Source: an uncultured Eggerthellaceae bacterium (GTDB taxonomy: Bacteria; Actinomycetota; Coriobacteriia; Coriobacteriales; Eggerthellaceae). Taken from it: a stretch of 64,000 nucleotides of DNA. The stretch spans positions 1 to 64,000 of the forward strand of contig CAJOIP010000002.1 of the NCBI GenBank assembly GCA_905234785.1. Reading direction: 5' to 3'. The position numbers and the translations under genes are program-made. How positions within the stretch are numbered: the first letter of the stretch is position 1; each line of letters begins with the position of its first letter. Shown here in pieces: positions 24,801 to 51,486 of the stretch. The notes beneath the pieces were generated by a model. The model was not told the DNA's origin. It worked only from the letters and a program-made list of their open reading frames with translations, and did no database searches.

Positions 24801-25546
24801 TCGGCGCCGCCCTTGTCCTTCTTGGACTTCTCCTTGTCCTTCTTCTTTTTCTTCTTGCCGCGCTCTGCCTCGGCCGCCTCGTCGTCGAGGCGCACGAGGA
24901 TGTAAAGCTTGCCGTTTTCCAAATGGGGGAACGGGTGGCGCGAGTTGATGATCTGCGGCGAGAGGAACGGCTCGATGTTGTGTTTCACGAGCCCGAACAG
25001 GTAGTTGCGCTGCTCGTCGGACAAATCGTCGGGGCGCAGGTGGCGCACGCCTTCCTTGGCGAGCTGCCCGCGCACGTGCTCGTAGGTCGATTCGTGGATA
25101 GGGTACAGTTCGTGACAGCGCTCGTGGATGGCGCGGATCTGCTCTTTGGCCGTCATGCCCGTCTTCGAGTCGATGACGGGCGGGTCGATGAACGACAGGT
25201 CGGTGAGGCTGCCGACGCGCACCATGAAGAACTCCTGGAGGTTGCTCCAGAAGATCGAGATGAAGTTCAGGCGCTCGAGCAGCGGCACCGACTCGTCGGC
25301 GCCTTGGTCGAGCACGCGCTCGTCGAACGTCAGCCAGGACAGTTCGCGGTTCTGCATGAAGACGTTCGAGCCGCCGTCCTCGTCCTCGCTCCCGTCGTCC
25401 CCGTCGTCGTATTCGTCGTAGGCATCGGCGTCTTCGGAGGCGTCCGCAAGGACCGCTTCGTCGGATGCGGGTGCCAGAGGCTTGAACGCTGAAACGGCGC
25501 CGAACTCGCCGAGGGTTGCGTCGTCGATGATGCTCTCTTCGCTCAT
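21857..25546 (-). CDS. ppk1: Polyphosphate kinase 1 with long acidic C-terminal extension
   Basis: [48 protein letters not shown] motifs; ~480-aa Glu/Pro-rich tail; ATG at 25546 (MSEES) after AGAGGAAA. Confidence 0.95.
22804..22950. repeat. Low-complexity tandem repeat encoding (EP)n/(EV)n in the PPK1 tail
   Basis: Repeated tcgggttcggg / tcgacctcg units; protein [45 protein letters not shown]. Confidence 0.85.
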
Positions 25547-25649
25547 ACGGTTTCCTCTGTTCACGATGGAATTAAAACAACTCTACACTATACCTCATCA
25601 GGGTGCATATTTGGTGTATCATCGAGGCATCTTAGAGAAAGGAAACCGC

Positions 25650-27407
25650 ATGCTCGAGCAGGTCGATTTCACGGTCGAGAAAATCTCGAAGGAAGACTAC
25701 AAGCCGCACCACAAAGAGCTCATCAACAAGCTCGTCGTGCTGCAACAGCAGGCGCGCGCCAAGGGAATCGGCCTTGTGGTGCTGTTCGAGGGCTGGGGCG
25801 GCGCCGGCAAGGGCAGCCGCATTTCCGACCTCATGTACGAGCTCGACGCCCGCGCCACTACGGTGCATGTGACGGAGGACTTCGACGTCGAGGCGGCGCG
25901 CAAGTTCGTGGGCTCCGAATGGGGCGTTTCCGATTTCAAGCCCGTCATGCAGGAATTCTGGCAGGCGCTCGGCGAGCGCGGGACCATCACGTTCTACGAC
26001 CGCGGCTGGTACACGGCCGCCATCGACCAGGCGCTGTTCGAGCTGACGGGCGACAAGCCCAAGGTCGCGAAGAAGCTCGACAAGAAATCGAAGGAGCATC
26101 CGCTTCTGGAAGACGGCGCCTCGAAGGCGCGCGGCGAGTTCCACGGCGACGTCGTCGCCAGCTACCAGCGCATCGCGCACAACTTCGAGCGGATGCTCGT
26201 CGACGACGGCTACATCGTCATCAAGCTGTTCGTGCACGTGTCGAAGGAAGCCCAGAAAAAGCGCCTCGAGCGCCTGCATGACAATCCGAACACGACGTGG
26301 CGCGTGAGCCCTGAGAAGCTCGCCCAGGTGAAGCATTACGACAAGGCCTACCAGCTGTACGACCGCCTGCTCGAGACGAGCAACTTCGCGTTCGCCCCTT
26401 GGACGCTCGTCAACGGCGAGGACAAGCGCGCCGCGAACCTGCAGGTCGCCCAAGCGCTCGTCGACGCCATCGAGCACGCGCTCGCGGCCAGGCCCGACGA
26501 AGCGGCCGAGGCCGCCAAGAAGAAGGCGGCGGAAAACTCCGCCCGCGCGGCTGCCGCCATCGGCGACGGCGGTGCCGAGGGAACTGAAGTCGACGATGCC
26601 GAGGCCGTGCGCAAAGCCGCCGAGGCGGAAGCGGCGCTTCAGCACTCGCAGGCCCCGCGCGGTTCCAACTACATCATCATGGCCGGCTACCCGCAAATCG
26701 ACCACGCGAAACCGAAGCCGGTCATCGAAACCGACGAGGAGTACAAAGCGCAGCTCAAGGCCGAGCAGGCGCGCTTCGCCGAACTCGAGCTGGAAATGTA
26801 CCAGAAGCGCGTGCCGCTCATGCTCATGTACGAAGGCTGGGATGCAGCGGGCAAGGGCGGCAACATCAAGCGCGTGTGCCAGGCCATCGACGCGCGCGCC
26901 TACACCATCTTCCCGTCGCCTGCGCCGACGAAGCCCGAGCTCATGCACCCGCACCTGTGGCGCTACTGGATACGCCTCCCGAAGGCCGGCCACGTCGGCA
27001 TCTACGACCGCAGCTGGTACGGCCGCGTGCTCGTCGAGCGCATCGAGGGCTTCTCGTCGACCGACCAATGGTCCCGCGCGTACGACGAGATCAACGCGTT
27101 CGAATACGAGCTCGTGCAATGGGGCGCCATCCTGCTGAAGTTCTGGGTCGACATTACGCCCGAAGAGCAACTGCGCCGCTTCGAGGCGCGTCAGGCCGAC
27201 CCCAACAAGATTTGGAAGATCACCGACGAGGATTGGCGCAACCGCGACAAGTATCCGCAGTACAAGCAGGCGGTCGACGACATGTTCCGCCTGACGTCCA
27301 CCACGTTCGCGCCGTGGATCGTGCTCGAGAGCGACGACAAGCGCTATGCCCGCGTCCAGGCGCTGCGCGCCATCAACGAGGCGCTCGAAGAGCGCATGCA
27401 CAAGTAG
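25650..27407 (+). CDS. pap: Two-domain PPK2-type polyphosphate:AMP phosphotransferase
   Basis: Two PPK2 modules: VLFEGWGGAGKGSRI...YDRGWYTAAI and LMYEGWDAAGKGGNIKR...YDRSWYGRVLVER. Confidence 0.93.
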   Translation: MLEQVDFTVEKISKEDYKPHHKELINKLVVLQQQARAKGIGLVVLFEGWGGAGKGSRISDLMYELDARATTVHVTEDFDVEAARKFVGSEWGVSDFKPVMQEFWQALGERGTITFYDRGWYTAAIDQALFELTGDKPKVAKKLDKKSKEHPLLEDGASKARGEFHGDVVASYQRIAHNFERMLVDDGYIVIKLFVHVSKEAQKKRLERLHDNPNTTWRVSPEKLAQVKHYDKAYQLYDRLLETSNFAFAPWTLVNGEDKRAANLQVAQALVDAIEHALAARPDEAAEAAKKKAAENSARAAAAIGDGGAEGTEVDDAEAVRKAAEAEAALQHSQAPRGSNYIIMAGYPQIDHAKPKPVIETDEEYKAQLKAEQARFAELELEMYQKRVPLMLMYEGWDAAGKGGNIKRVCQAIDARAYTIFPSPAPTKPELMHPHLWRYWIRLPKAGHVGIYDRSWYGRVLVERIEGFSSTDQWSRAYDEINAFEYELVQWGAILLKFWVDITPEEQLRRFEARQADPNKIWKITDEDWRNRDKYPQYKQAVDDMFRLTSTTFAPWIVLESDDKRYARVQALRAINEALEERMHK

Positions 27408-45177: not shown

Positions 45178-47251
45178 GACGCTTGCCTTCGAAATCGGCA
45201 CCGAGGAGCTGCCCGCATTCGACCTGCATGCCGCGACCGAGAAGCTCGGCGGTTTGGCCGCCACCGCGCTCGACGGCGCGAAGATTCCGCATGGCGATAT
45301 CTCCGTGTACACCACGCCGCGCCGCCTCATCGTCATCGTCGCCGACGTTCCCGAGGCAACCGAAGCCGCCGTCGAAGAGTTCCGCGGCCCTGCCGCCAAG
45401 ATCGCGTTCGACGAGAGCGGCGCGCCGACGAAGGCCGCCATCGGCTTCGCGCGCGGCAAGGGCGTCGACCCTGCCAACCTCGAGCGCCGCGACGAGAACG
45501 GCACCGAGTACGTGTACGCCGTGAAGGAGACGCCCTCGCTCGACGTGGCCGCATTGCTGCCCGAGTTGCTCGGCAACCTCATCACGGCCATTTCGTGGCC
45601 GAAGTCGCAGCGGTGGGGAAATCGCCGCGAGCAGTTCAGCCGCCCGGTGCGCTGGATTCTCGCCATGCTGGGCGAGACGGTCGTGCCCGTCGAGTTCGCG
45701 GGCTTGGTGGCCGGCAACACGACGCGCGGACACAGGTTCCTCAATCCCGGCCCGCATGCCGTCGCCTCTGCCGATGCGCTCATCGACGTGCTGCGTTCCG
45801 CCAACGTCGTTCCGAGCGAGGCGGAGCGCGAGAGCTCGATTCGCGAGCAGGTGAAAGCCATCGAAGCCGAGACGGGCCTCGTCGCCGAGCTGCCCGCGAA
45901 GACGATGGAAGAAGTCGTGAACCTGACCGAGTTCCCGACCGTCATGGTCGGCGAGTTCGACGAGCTGTTCCTGGCCGTGCCGAAGGAGATCACGGTCGAC
46001 GCCATGCTCGTGCATCAGCGCTACTTCCCGCTGTTCAACGCCGACGGCTCGCTTTCCAACAAGTTCCTCATCACCTCGAACGGCAACCCCGAGTTCCGCG
46101 AGAACATCGTGGACGGCAACCAGCGCGTGGTCGCCGCGCGCCTGTACGACGCGAAGTTCTTCTACGACGAGGACCTGAAGAAGCCGCTCGAGGCATATGT
46201 CGAGCGCTTGGGCGAGGTCGTGTTCCAGGAGTCCCTCGGCACGACGCGCGCCAAGACCGACCGCATCGTCGAGCTTGCGAAGCGACTCGGCGCCGATGCG
46301 GGGCTTTCCGGGCAAGACGCCGCCGATGCCGAGCGCGCCGCCTATCTGTGCAAGGCCGACTTGGTCACCGGCGCGGTCGTCGAGTTCACGAGCGTACAGG
46401 GCATCATGGGCCGCTACTACGCGAAGGCCGCAGGCGAGACCGACCAGGTCGCCGAGGCCATCGCCGACCACTACCGCCCGCGCTTCGCGGGTGACGACAC
46501 GCCGACGAGCATGGTCGGCAAGGTCGTCGCGACGGCCGATAAGCTCGACACGATATGCGGCCTGTTCGCCGTGGGGCAAGGCCCGACCGGCTCGTCCGAC
46601 CCGTTCGCGCTGCGCCGTTCCGCCATCGGCATCTTGGCGATGCTCGAGGACGGGCTGAGCGTCTCGCTTGTCGACGCCATCGATTCGGCGCTCGACATTT
46701 ACCGGCAGGGCGGGTTGGAGTTCGATCGCGAAGCCGTCCGCGCCGAGGTCATCGACTTCTTCGTCACGCGCACCAAGGTCATGTTGCGCGATTCCGGCAT
46801 CGCCGCCGACACGGTCGACGCCGTGCTCGCTGCTGATGTTGTCGAGCCCATGGTCATCATGGGCCGTGCCCGCGCGCTCGAAAGCGCCCGCGCCAACGAC
46901 AAGGACACCTTCGACGATTTGGCCACCGCCTATGCGCGCGCGAACAACCTGCGCGACGCCGAGCTTGGCTCCGATGTTGACGAATCGCTGTTCGGCGACG
47001 AGGAAAAGGCGCTGAACGCCGCCGTGGCGAACGCCGAATCGGCCGTTGCCGATGCGCTCGCAGCCGACGATTACCCGCAGGCGCTGTCCGTGCTCGCCGG
47101 TTTGCGCGGGCCGATCGACGCGTTTTTCGAGAACGTCATGGTGATGGACGAGGACGACAAGGTGCGCGCCAACCGCCTGAAGCTCCTCAACCGTTTCGTC
47201 GGCGTGTTCGGAAACGTCGCCGACTTCGGAAAAATGTCGAAGGGCAAGTAG
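45167..47251 (+). CDS. glyS: Glycyl-tRNA synthetase beta subunit
   Basis: [27 protein letters not shown]; overlaps glyQ. Confidence 0.96.
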
Positions 47252-47263
47252 CAACGCTATTGG

Positions 47264-47368
47264 CCCTTGCGGTAGGTGGGGATTCGCGCTTGTACTCGCT
47301 CGCATGGTTGGTGTAGGTCGAAGCCAACCGCTGCTGCGGAATCGCGCTCACCCCACCTACCGCAAGGG
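47264..47368 (+). repeat. Structured repeat E1 (18-bp perfect terminal inverted repeats)
   Basis: CCCTTGCGGTAGGTGGGG...CCCCACCTACCGCAAGGG; core related to 50582-50717 on the opposite strand. Confidence 0.85.
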
Positions 47369-47418
47369 ATAACGATCGGCTGCTCGACGGACAAACTCTT
47401 TTACATCCCGAATTCAAC

Positions 47419-47515: not shown

Positions 47516-48415
47516 TTACGAGGCTTGCCGTAAGTCCTCTATGCCAAAGCCGGGCGATGGTTGGATGAGGGGTTCGGCATTCGCGGCGTGCTCCTTGCCG
47601 GTGGGGATGCGGTAGATGGAGAGCTTGCCCGAATCGGATTTGCGCACTTGGACGGCGCCTCGTTCGGCCAGCACGCGCTTGTAGGCGTTTCCGTATTTAG
47701 AAAAGGAGCGCGGGTAGGCGCCGACTGACGACAGCAGCTCGCAGAGCCACACGGGGTAGCCGCCTGCGCACTTGATTTCCATTATCACCTGGTCAGGCGC
47801 CGTGACGGGGTGGCGCTGCACCGAGTTTTCCTCCATGAGGTCGATGTAGCAGATGTCCTCGTCGAACGTGATGCGGTCGACGCAGTCTTCGTCTTCCGGG
47901 TCGACCTTGCACCATGCCTCGCGCAAACAGCTGATGAGCATCGAGGGCGCCAGGCCCTCGTAGCGGTTGAAGAACGCATCGAGCTCGCGTGCGATCTGCA
48001 CTTTGCCGGGAAGCAGCTCCTTGCTGCCATCAGTCCCGGGTATCGGCAGCTGCACCTGTGCTTGCTCGTACGGCATGCCGTTCATGTAGGCGCGCGCGCC
48101 CTCGGCGCTCATGCGCACGCGGCGCTTGTACACGATGCCCTTGTATTTCTTCTTTATCTCGACGAACACCGATTCCGCCTCGGAAAACGGGCCGTAGCTG
48201 CGGATGCGCAGCTTCTCCTTGTAAAGCGGCTTCTCGAGGGAACGGCAGATGAGCGAGCGGTCAGGCGTGTCCAAATACAGGCTGTCGATGCGCGTCGCGC
48301 CGTAGTCGTCTAAGCGCATGTGGGCGGCGAGTCCTGCTTTGATGGCCTCGCACTGGCCCGTCGTGATGAGGTACTTCTTCTCTTTGCGCTCGAACGTGTC
48401 TGCTGCAGTCGCCAT
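47516..48415 (-). CDS. VTC-domain (CYTH-like) polyphosphate polymerase
   Basis: ERKEKKYLIT, RIDSLYLDTPDRSLICRSLEKPLYKEKLRIRSYG, VFVEIKKKYKGIVYKRRVRM, VIMEIKCAGGYPVWL; start MATAADTF at 48415. Confidence 0.88.
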   Translation of the reverse strand: MATAADTFERKEKKYLITTGQCEAIKAGLAAHMRLDDYGATRIDSLYLDTPDRSLICRSLEKPLYKEKLRIRSYGPFSEAESVFVEIKKKYKGIVYKRRVRMSAEGARAYMNGMPYEQAQVQLPIPGTDGSKELLPGKVQIARELDAFFNRYEGLAPSMLISCLREAWCKVDPEDEDCVDRITFDEDICYIDLMEENSVQRHPVTAPDQVIMEIKCAGGYPVWLCELLSSVGAYPRSFSKYGNAYKRVLAERGAVQVRKSDSGKLSIYRIPTGKEHAANAEPLIQPSPGFGIEDLRQAS

Positions 48416-48445
48416 GTTGGGTTTCCTTTCCCTTGTGCCATCTGC

Positions 48446-48516
48446 ATGGTACGCGCCGCACCTGAATCGAATCTGAAAGCGCGCTTTCAGGCAGGTTTCA
48501 GCTTCTCGGCTAGAAT
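48446..48516. promoter_or_regulatory. Symmetrical divergent operator/promoter between VTC and RR genes
   Basis: CTGAAT 462-467, CTGAAA 473-478, TTTCAG 485-490, TTTCAG 496-501 (last three digits), both pairs 11-bp phased; -10 TAGAAT (48511-48516, +) and TACCAT (48451-48446, -). Confidence 0.75.
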
Positions 48517-48543
48517 GTGCTTGTACGCGGAAAGGCGGAACCA

Positions 48544-49218
48544 ATGCAGATACTCATCGTTGAAGACGACATTAGGCTGGCCCAGGCGGTCGGGAAGATC
48601 CTCGAGGAGAACGACTATCAGGTCGACATGGTGCACGACGGGCAATCGGGCCTCGACTACGCCGAGTCGGGCATCTACGACGTCGTGATCCTCGACGTCA
48701 TGTTGCCGAAGATGGACGGGTTCGTGGTATCGAAGCAACTGCGCCGCAAGGGCGTCGACACGCCGGTGCTCATGCTGACGGCGCGCTCCCAGATTCCCGA
48801 CAAGATAGAAGGGCTCGATTCGGGCGCTGACGATTACATGACCAAGCCGTTCTCGCCGGCGGAGCTGCTCGCGCATCTGCGCGCCCTCACGCGCCGCACG
48901 GGCCAGGTCGTGTTCGAGACGCTCGCGTTTTCCGACCTCGAGCTGAACCTGGAAAGCCACGACTTGAAATGCGGCAGCAAGTCCATCAACTTGTCGTACA
49001 AGGAGTTCTCGCTCATAAACATCCTCATGGCCAACCACGGCCAGATCGTGTCGAAAGACACCCTGATATCGAAAGTCTGGGGCGTCGAGTCGACCGCAGT
49101 CGATAATAATGTCGAGGCGTACGTCTCGTTCTTGCGCAAGAAGCTGAAGTTCCTGGGCTCGAAGGCTCAGATCGAGACGATTCGGAAAGTGGGATACCGC
49201 CTGACCGACGAGGGTTAG
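48544..49218 (+). CDS. OmpR/PhoB-family response regulator
   Basis: MQILIVEDDIRLAQ, VILDVMLPKMDGF, TKPFSPAELLAHLRAL, C-terminal winged helix VETIRKVGYRL-type. Confidence 0.95.
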   Translation: MQILIVEDDIRLAQAVGKILEENDYQVDMVHDGQSGLDYAESGIYDVVILDVMLPKMDGFVVSKQLRRKGVDTPVLMLTARSQIPDKIEGLDSGADDYMTKPFSPAELLAHLRALTRRTGQVVFETLAFSDLELNLESHDLKCGSKSINLSYKEFSLINILMANHGQIVSKDTLISKVWGVESTAVDNNVEAYVSFLRKKLKFLGSKAQIETIRKVGYRLTDEG

Positions 49219-49219
49219 C

Positions 49220-50569
49220 ATGCTCAAAAAACTACGCATCAAGTTCGTGGCGATCATCATGGCCTCGGTGGCCGTGGTGCTCGCCATCGTGTTCACGGGA
49301 ATCTGCATATCCGAATACCAGCGCAGCATGTCGACGGTGAACGAGGCGCTGAGCTCGTCGATCGACCGGGCGAGCAACGACGTCCTCAACGCACCCGATC
49401 CGTTCATGCGGGGCGGCGGCATGCGCTTCGACATCGAGGGCGTTTTCGACGACTTCGATGATTACGACGAGCTATCCGAGATGCTGGACGAGTTCATCGA
49501 GGATGGGGGATTCGGCGGCCCGCGCATCGGCGGCGGGCGCGAGGAAGAGCGATCGCTCGTGCCCGTGGCTGTGTACGTTCAAGATTCCTCCGGGTCGTAC
49601 ACCGCCGTTTCCCGCTATGCCACCGCTTACATCGAAGAGGATGTGCTCGCCACCGCTTCAAGCCAGCTTGCAGGCGTCGGGGAAGGGAGCGGCGAGCTTT
49701 CGGGCTTGGGGCTCGTGTACGAGAAGCGCTCAGTCGAAGGGCTTACCTACGTCGCCTTCGCCGACGCGTCGTATGCGTCGAGCTGGCAGGCGCTCGCGGT
49801 CTCGCTTTTGATTGCCGGGCTGCTCACCCTTGCCGTGTTCTTCGTGATCGCGTTGCTGCTGTCGAAGTGGGCGCTCAAACCAGTCGAAGAGGCGTGGACC
49901 GCTCAGCGCCAATTCGTGGCCGACGCATCGCATGAGCTGAAAACGCCGCTGACGGTCGTGCTGGCGAACACGTCTATTCTTTTGAAGCATCCCGAGGCGA
50001 CCATTGCGAACCAAAGCCAATGGATCGAGAGCACTCAAGTGGAAGCCGAGAGCATGCAGGGCCTCGTGAACGAGATGCTCGAATTGGCCCAAGTCGAATC
50101 GCGCGCCAACGTGCAGCATGAGCCGCTCGATTTTAGCGACATGGTTGCAGGCGAGACGCTGCAGTTCGAATCGGTGGCCTTCGAGCGCGGCTGCCGGTTC
50201 GAGGAATCGGTTGCCGAGGGCATCACGGTTTCCGGCGATGCGCAACGCCTGCGCAAGATGACGTCGACGCTCATCGAGAACGCGTTGAAGTACGTCGACG
50301 ATGGCGGCCTCGTGGAAGTAAGGCTCGAAGCCAAGGGCAACGTCGCGCACATGACCATCCACAACACCGGCTCGACCATCTCGCCCGAAGACCTTCCGCA
50401 CATCTTCGACCGCTTCTACCGCACCGACAAGGCGCGCACGTCCGGTACCGGCGGCTTCGGCCTCGGCCTCGCCATCGCCCGCGAAACCGCCCGCGAGCAC
50501 GCCGGCGACATCACCTGCAGCAGCAGCGGCTCCGGCACCACCTTCACCGTAACGCTCCCAACAGCATAG
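49220..50569 (+). CDS. Sensor histidine kinase
   Basis: Two TMs; FVADASHELKTPLTVV H-box, IFDRFYRTDKART, GFGLGLAIA. Confidence 0.95.
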   Translation: MLKKLRIKFVAIIMASVAVVLAIVFTGICISEYQRSMSTVNEALSSSIDRASNDVLNAPDPFMRGGGMRFDIEGVFDDFDDYDELSEMLDEFIEDGGFGGPRIGGGREEERSLVPVAVYVQDSSGSYTAVSRYATAYIEEDVLATASSQLAGVGEGSGELSGLGLVYEKRSVEGLTYVAFADASYASSWQALAVSLLIAGLLTLAVFFVIALLLSKWALKPVEEAWTAQRQFVADASHELKTPLTVVLANTSILLKHPEATIANQSQWIESTQVEAESMQGLVNEMLELAQVESRANVQHEPLDFSDMVAGETLQFESVAFERGCRFEESVAEGITVSGDAQRLRKMTSTLIENALKYVDDGGLVEVRLEAKGNVAHMTIHNTGSTISPEDLPHIFDRFYRTDKARTSGTGGFGLGLAIARETAREHAGDITCSSSGSGTTFTVTLPTA

Positions 50570-50581
50570 GACCTCAAGCGG

Positions 50582-50717
50582 AAGGGCGTAGCCTCTGGCT
50601 GCGGAAGGGGGCCGAGGGCGATTCCGCAGCCGGATGCGGCATCGATCGGTAAAGCCATGCGAGCGAGGACAAGCCCGAACCCCCTTCCAACCGCAGAGGA
50701 CGGACGGTTGCGCCCTT
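50582..50717 (-). repeat. Structured repeat E2, opposite orientation to E1
   Basis: Minus strand GGAAGGGGG-TTCGGGCTTGTCCTCGCTCGCATGG...GCTGCGGAATCGCCCTCGG-CCCCCTTCC plus outer arms CCTCTG/CAGAGG and AAGGGCG/CGCCCTT. Confidence 0.75.
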
Positions 50718-50748
50718 TCAGCATCTTTTAAGCTTCCTTTCTTACCAT
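50716..50748 (+). promoter_or_regulatory. DUF4956 gene operator/promoter
   Basis: TTTCAG (50716-50721) N5 TTTAAG (50727-50732) N10 TACCAT (50743-50748). Confidence 0.65.
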
Positions 50749-50787
50749 GACCTCATCATCCGAAAGGTCTTGGGAAAGGAATCAACC

Positions 50788-51486
50788 ATGGATGCATTGT
50801 TCACTTCGGTGCTCGGCACGACCGAGTCGGCCATGACGACGGTGACAACCGCGGGGTTCATGTGGTGCACGCTCGCATCGATCGTCCTCGGCTTGGCGTG
50901 CGCGCTCATCTACATGTACAAGCACGACTACTCGAAGAACTTCGTCGTGACGCTGGCGCTCATGCCCGTCATCGTGCAGATGGTCATCACGCTCGTCAAC
51001 GGCAACCTCGGCGCGGGCGTGGCCGTCATGGGCGTGTTCAACCTCGTGCGCTTCCGCTCGATAGCGGGCACGGCGAAGGACATCGGAAGCGTGTTCTTGG
51101 CGATGGCCATCGGCCTTGCCACCGGCATGGGCTACATCGGCGTCGCCGCCATCCTCACGGTCGTCGTGGGCGTGTTCAACATCATCTACGTCACGACGCC
51201 GTTCGGAAGCCCGCGCGAGTCTGCCAAGAAGAAGCAGCTTAAGATCACGGTACCCGAAGACCTCGAGTTCGAAGGCGCGTTCGACGAGGTGCTCGCGAAC
51301 TACACGGCGACGTGCGAGCTGCAAAACGTCTCGACGAGCAACATGGGCAGCCTGTACCAGCTCGAGTACCTGGTGTCCATGAAGGCCGACGGCCTCGAGA
51401 AGCGCATGATCGACGAGCTGCGCTGCCTGAACGGCAACCTGAAGATCTCGCTTGGATCTCCGCAGGTGAAACGCGAAGTCCTGTAA
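50788..51486 (+). CDS. DUF4956-family membrane protein
   Basis: Four predicted TMs then cytosolic domain; GAGVAVMGVFNLVRFRSIAGTAKDIGSVFLAMAIGLATGMGY. Confidence 0.85.
   Translation: MDALFTSVLGTTESAMTTVTTAGFMWCTLASIVLGLACALIYMYKHDYSKNFVVTLALMPVIVQMVITLVNGNLGAGVAVMGVFNLVRFRSIAGTAKDIGSVFLAMAIGLATGMGYIGVAAILTVVVGVFNIIYVTTPFGSPRESAKKKQLKITVPEDLEFEGAFDEVLANYTATCELQNVSTSNMGSLYQLEYLVSMKADGLEKRMIDELRCLNGNLKISLGSPQVKREVL

Follow-up and report, generated by a model that had tools for sequence, protein, structure and literature searches.

The intergenic region separating a VTC-domain gene from a divergently transcribed OmpR/PhoB-type response regulator (RR) gene in the window (the whole stretch of 64,000 nucleotides from an uncultured Eggerthellaceae bacterium that was analysed) is, with high probability, organised as two back-to-back promoters, each carrying one activator box for the adjacent regulator. 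According to this model, which is built from sequence comparisons, a head-to-tail regulator dimer would occupy each TTTCAG-N5-TTTCAG in place of a -35 element, and the bound dimer would recruit RNA polymerase to a -10 element starting 9 bp (RR promoter) or 10 bp (VTC and other effector promoters) downstream. The regulator, together with its kinase, would thereby control an envelope regulon as well as its own synthesis. The functional unit is the 11-bp direct repeat, present once per promoter, and not the palindrome formed where the two boxes abut. The boxes mark cell-envelope genes that are very probably switched on by this regulator, and the box itself is conserved across dozens of gut-bacterial genera. 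The features of the locus are collected in Table 1.

Table 1. Positions of the genes, boxes and promoter elements of the VTC-RR locus in the window.
Feature	Position	Strand	Basis or remark
VTC-domain gene (polyphosphate-polymerase-like), leftward promoter target	47516..48415	-	PF09359 E=1.5e-39, residues 9-247
VTC -10 element TACCAT	48446..48451	-	10 bp beyond VTC box; sequence read directly
VTC box TTTCAG-ATTCG-ATTCAG, 11-bp direct repeat	48462..48478	-	sequence and family conservation
18-bp palindrome CTGAAAGCGCGCTTTCAG from inner half-sites	48473..48490	.	perfect; incidental to two abutting boxes
RR box TTTCAG-GCAGG-TTTCAG, 11-bp direct repeat, autoregulation (predicted)	48485..48501	+	sequence and family conservation
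RR -10 element TAGAAT	48511..48516	+	9 bp beyond RR box
OmpR/PhoB-family response regulator, recognition helix NNVEAYVSFLRKKL	48544..49218	+	PF00072 and PF00486
Sensor histidine kinase, acidic extracytoplasmic domain	49220..50569	+	PF00512 and PF02518; estimated extracytoplasmic net charge -19
Third box TTTCAG-CATCT-TTTAAG, upstream of DUF4956	50716..50732	+	conserved in close relatives
DUF4956 promoter -10 TACCAT (N10)	50743..50748	+	10 bp beyond third box
DUF4956 membrane protein gene, usual VTC operon partner	50788..51486	+	PF16316 E=1.6e-17

On the plus strand the half-sites read CTGAAT (48462-48467), CTGAAA (48473-48478), TTTCAG (48485-48490) and TTTCAG (48496-48501), giving three exact copies of TTTCAG and one ATTCAG. 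The half-site coordinates, the palindrome and the -10 elements given in the first-pass annotation all match the sequence, and its placement of a -10 element 9-10 bp past each repeat is borne out by TAGAAT at 9 bp and TACCAT at 10 bp. Its description of four 11-bp-phased half-sites is correct within each pair; the inner two half-sites start 12 bp apart, and consequently the four do not lie on a single 11-bp ruler. The third box (50716-50732) was absent from its list. When at most one mismatch is allowed, TTTCAGNNNNNWTTCAG has three matches in the window, a count that compares with 0.19 expected and did not arise in any of 100 shuffles. The pattern CTGAAWN5CTGAAA has four matches in the whole 2.26 Mb genome, two of which are in the VTC-RR intergenic region, and none for the reversed control. 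A search of positions 48300-50900 for a sigma-70-like -35/-10 pair found none, in keeping with a box that substitutes for the -35 element.

The adjacent regulator consists of a receiver domain and a winged-helix Trans_reg_C domain (PF00072, PF00486), and its recognition helix is nearly invariant among 30 regulator orthologues. The extracytoplasmic domain of the sensor is acidic in every orthologue examined, with an estimated net charge of -6 to -30, which suggests that it may respond to a cationic or surface signal; the kinase presumably senses an envelope or cell-surface condition. The product of the VTC gene belongs to the VTC family by its PF09359 domain, and its role in polyphosphate synthesis is putative. 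The window also holds a PPK2 polyphosphate kinase gene (25482-27407), and the window-wide box search placed no box near it.

The conservation of this arrangement was probed across 140 genomes of the same family. VTC relatives are found in 94 of these, DUF4956 adjoins VTC in most family genomes, and the usual gene order among 40 fetched loci is Cthe_2159-DUF4956-VTC, divergent from the regulator and kinase genes. With at most one mismatch, and with A allowed for C at position 4, a box lies upstream of 37/40 VTC genes and 30/33 RR genes; C dominates at this position (TTTCAG), with A as the minority variant. The gap between hexamers is similarly restricted. With up to two mismatches to TTTCAG, a gap of 5 is found at 38/41 VTC and 30/33 RR genes, while each of the gaps 2-4 and 6-9 gives 7 or fewer, so that the strict spacing of an OmpR/PhoB direct repeat is observed here at gap 5 only, with a period of about 11 bp. 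Among promoters with a recognisable -10 element, the distance from box to -10 is 10 bp in 36/36 VTC promoters and 9 bp in 24/26 RR promoters. The -10 elements of the RR promoters are mostly TACAAT or TAGAAT, and those of the VTC promoters are degenerate. A fixed distance to the -10 element (N9/N10) with no -35-like pair is what is expected of OmpR/PhoB boxes that replace or overlap the -35, and activation by a head-to-tail dimer replacing the -35 is most likely the mode of action at both the RR and the effector promoters.

The boxes also follow the regulator between genomes. Matches to TTTCAGN6TTMAGN{9,10}TANNNT occur in 91/140 family genomes, and the reversed control gives a single match in each of two genomes. 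The regulator and a match are both present in 85 genomes and both absent in 38; there are 11 genomes with the regulator and no match and 6 with a match and no regulator (Fisher p=4e-18, uncorrected for phylogeny). The strict pattern thus has no match in 11/96 regulator-bearing genomes, and 5 of the 6 regulator-absent genomes with a match are only 70-79% complete. Conservation of the half-sites in orthologous VTC-RR regions, on which the first-pass annotation had made its reading depend, is what was found: the boxes are kept and track the regulator across genomes. The fixed distance to the -10 element might also be read as the signature of an alternative sigma factor, with the TTTCAG repeats serving as its promoter element rather than as a regulator site. 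This is extremely improbable, as two hexamers 11 bp apart are required, the boxes co-vary with the response regulator, and promoters of the RR class have an ordinary -10 element, TAcAAT. To our knowledge, two hexamers 11 bp apart are not how sigma factors read a -35 element.

The first-pass annotation regarded the region as one mirror-symmetric operator, and a symmetric dimer such as a classical repressor could in principle bind the 18-bp palindrome itself, leaving the outer half-sites coincidental. The palindrome is perfect in the window, and the facing boxes are also 6 bp apart in three genomes of the same genus (G115, G118, G120). In the remaining loci, however, the facing gap is 11-204 bp, giving a range of 6-204 bp across the family, and only one box, lacking a facing partner, is present at each of the DUF4956 and Cthe_2159 promoters. 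Furthermore, both half-sites of each direct repeat are conserved, the outer ones included. A palindromic operator is accordingly very improbable, and the palindrome was ruled out as one symmetric site because its spacing is not conserved. Since the 6-bp spacing is found only in close relatives, the mirror symmetry of the facing boxes is incidental. Helical phasing between facing boxes was also considered, since a period of roughly 10.1 bp accommodates 29 gaps (p about 0.002). It was left as a weak lead, because the 6-bp gap in the window does not fit this phase, the test was post hoc, and related genomes are not independent. Two facing TTTCAG-N5-TTTAAG boxes were also observed on a contig assigned to an Oscillospiraceae MAG (L247, 1660-1753), together with a 56% identical regulator and distant VTC and DUF4956 relatives; this represents either a transfer or a misfiled contig.

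The direct repeat recurs away from the VTC-RR intergenic region. In the genus of the window the ancestral operon is split, and separate boxes, each with N10 spacing and TACCAT, precede the genes for VTC, DUF4956 and a Cthe_2159-type lipoprotein (the last of these on another contig), such that box, distance and -10 are common to three separate promoters. The lipoprotein gene is preceded by the fourth box, TTTCAG-GGTGA-ATTCAG, with TACCAT 10 bp beyond it. The strict list for this genome comprises the RR, VTC, DUF4956 and Cthe_2159 lipoprotein genes and a gene for a small membrane protein (contig C5). A variant TTTAAG-type box with N10 and TATTCT precedes the gene for a serine-rich lipoprotein that has no Pfam match (C13:15690-15722, L162); similar lipoproteins carry TTTCAG boxes in other genomes.

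The same theme is seen in the wider family, where 92 downstream proteins, gathered mostly outside the VTC-RR locus, were annotated with Pfam. These include Cthe_2159 proteins (19), DUF4405 proteins (10), response regulators (10), HtrA-type proteins with trypsin and PDZ domains (7), proteins with sigma-70 region 2 (3) and putative esterases (3). SurA_N, MacB/FtsX and HlyD proteins are also boxed, as is a PspA-like protein recognised by eye. The boxed genes outside the VTC-RR locus are mostly envelope or secreted, and the predicted regulon centres on the envelope and on the quality of extracytoplasmic proteins. The recurrence of the box at DUF4956, Cthe_2159 lipoprotein and other envelope genes points to an envelope regulon combined with autoregulation. 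The proposal in the first-pass annotation that the adjacent RR acts on itself and on VTC is upheld insofar as the boxes are conserved and track the RR; the predicted target set is wider than these two genes. The seven boxed HtrA-type genes are in other family genomes. HtrA was considered but not taken as a target in this genome, as the box on contig C14 is oriented away from the gene and lacks a suitably spaced -10 element.

Given that other response-regulator genes are boxed in several genera, a paralogue could share or take over the sites. The boxes might thus be genuine RR sites whose main binder is another OmpR-family protein, or which several such proteins share, as the 10 Response_reg proteins among the 92 would allow. 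This is unlikely, because the boxes co-occur strongly with the adjacent regulator, the gene of this regulator is itself boxed in 30/33 loci, and its nearly invariant recognition helix is conserved alongside the box. On these grounds we infer that the adjacent regulator is the binder of the boxes. Another conserved response regulator (MSNETRRILLVEDEKA...) has an N9 box about 100 bp upstream of its start (L199, L201, L206, L211, L212, L216, L221). A boxed second response regulator in several genera suggests that the system may extend into a regulatory cascade.

The closest parallels in promoter architecture are found in known OmpR/PhoB-type systems. CiaR promoters of Streptococcus contain NTTAAG-N5-TTTAAG located 10 bp before the -10 element (PMC3091779). 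The system described here resembles CiaRH in its two hexamers with a 5-bp gap, in the 10-bp distance to the effector -10 and in the presence of HtrA among the boxed genes of several family genera (PMC3091779 for the CiaR values). The recognition helices, the only part by which the two regulators were compared, are also alike (VVEVYVSKVRKKL in CiaR, NNVEAYVSFLRKKL here). In contrast to CiaR, position 4 of the half-site is C in most sites here rather than A, the distance at the regulator's own promoter is 9 bp, and the system belongs to another phylum and has VTC, DUF4956 and Cthe_2159 proteins at the core of its predicted regulon. The parallel bears on the direction of control. As the box overlaps the place where RNA polymerase would contact a -35 element, the regulator might bind there and repress. 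This is quite unlikely, since there is no -35 hexamer to block, the target -10 elements are degenerate, and the box is positioned and spaced exactly as in promoters activated by CiaR (PMC3091779). The regulator would therefore activate rather than repress.

The best solved relative of the regulator is PhoP of Mycobacterium tuberculosis (E about 8e-45; PDB 3r0j, 5ed4, 9ji3). A tandem dimer of PhoP recognises TCACAGC direct repeats that have an 11-bp period and strict spacing (PMC4832192). The PhoP helix NVVESYVSYLRRKI aligns with that of the regulator, both systems use 11-bp direct repeats, and the half-sites share T..CAG. The PhoP half-site is nevertheless TCACAG rather than TTTCAG, its regulon is different, and overall similarity is only moderate; TTTCAG lies between the half-sites of CiaR and PhoP. 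Autoregulated divergent promoters of the OmpR/PhoB family in general are alike in autoregulation and in a direct-repeat box that replaces the -35 element; the present system differs in its conserved split between 9 bp at the regulator and 10 bp at the effectors. This N9/N10 split is unusual; otherwise the arrangement belongs to a known kind of OmpR/PhoB-type operator.

Comparisons based on gene content are less direct. Genes for CotH, polyphosphate polymerase and DUF4956 adjoin Pel clusters of Gram-positive bacteria as accessory genes (PMC7112168). These have in common with the present locus the pairing of a VTC-type polymerase with DUF4956 (PMC7112168). Here the pair is instead associated with a two-component system and with Cthe_2159 lipoproteins, and the genes examined included none for Pel. 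The CutRS/CssRS secretion-stress systems of Streptomyces exert two-component control of HtrA-type proteases (PMC12802291) and are alike as actinobacterial two-component systems tied to such proteases. A CutR-type site was rejected, as the CutR consensus is TAWATAAA and not TTTCAG repeats. In the literature searched, no description was found of a two-component system with these boxes, and neither response-regulator TTTCAG direct repeats nor the combination of VTC with DUF4956 yielded anything relevant.

A family of hairpin repeats was also observed, with copies in the window at 50560-50720 and 47230-47400 (minus strand), at C44:5630 and C14:37868, and at about 20 other places in the genome. With at most one mismatch, GGCGATTCCGCAGC has 26 matches in this genome compared with 1 for the reversed control. 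The conserved core of about 57 bases (GCGATTCCGCAGC...GCGAGGACAAGC) lies inside a long hairpin whose arms vary between copies yet pair within each copy, as the mean duplex energy is -52 kcal/mol for a copy's own arms vs -27 kcal/mol across copies (permutation p<=5e-5). The full core pattern occurs in this genome and in G118, with one match in G125, and the family has no Rfam match up to E 0.5. The repeat looks like a small element within terminator-like stems. Four copies abut VTC-regulon genes or the HtrA gene, and the copies are perhaps linked to operon splitting.

For a two-component system in a family with few mapped regulons, the analysis defines a putative binding site and names a candidate regulator and its predicted targets. 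It also gives regulatory access to the VTC, DUF4956 and Cthe_2159 proteins of bacteria. Additionally, the strict 9 vs 10 bp split across genera offers natural promoters for asking how 1-bp shifts between activator and -10 element tune output. A tentative possibility, somewhat short of an even chance, is that this one-base difference is a promoter code, wherein RR promoters (9 bp, near-consensus TAcAAT) would be partly active and self-reinforcing and effector promoters (10 bp, degenerate -10) strictly activator-dependent. A single RR would then read all of them, and may run an envelope regulon of the VTC-DUF4956-Cthe_2159 surface system across this gut family.
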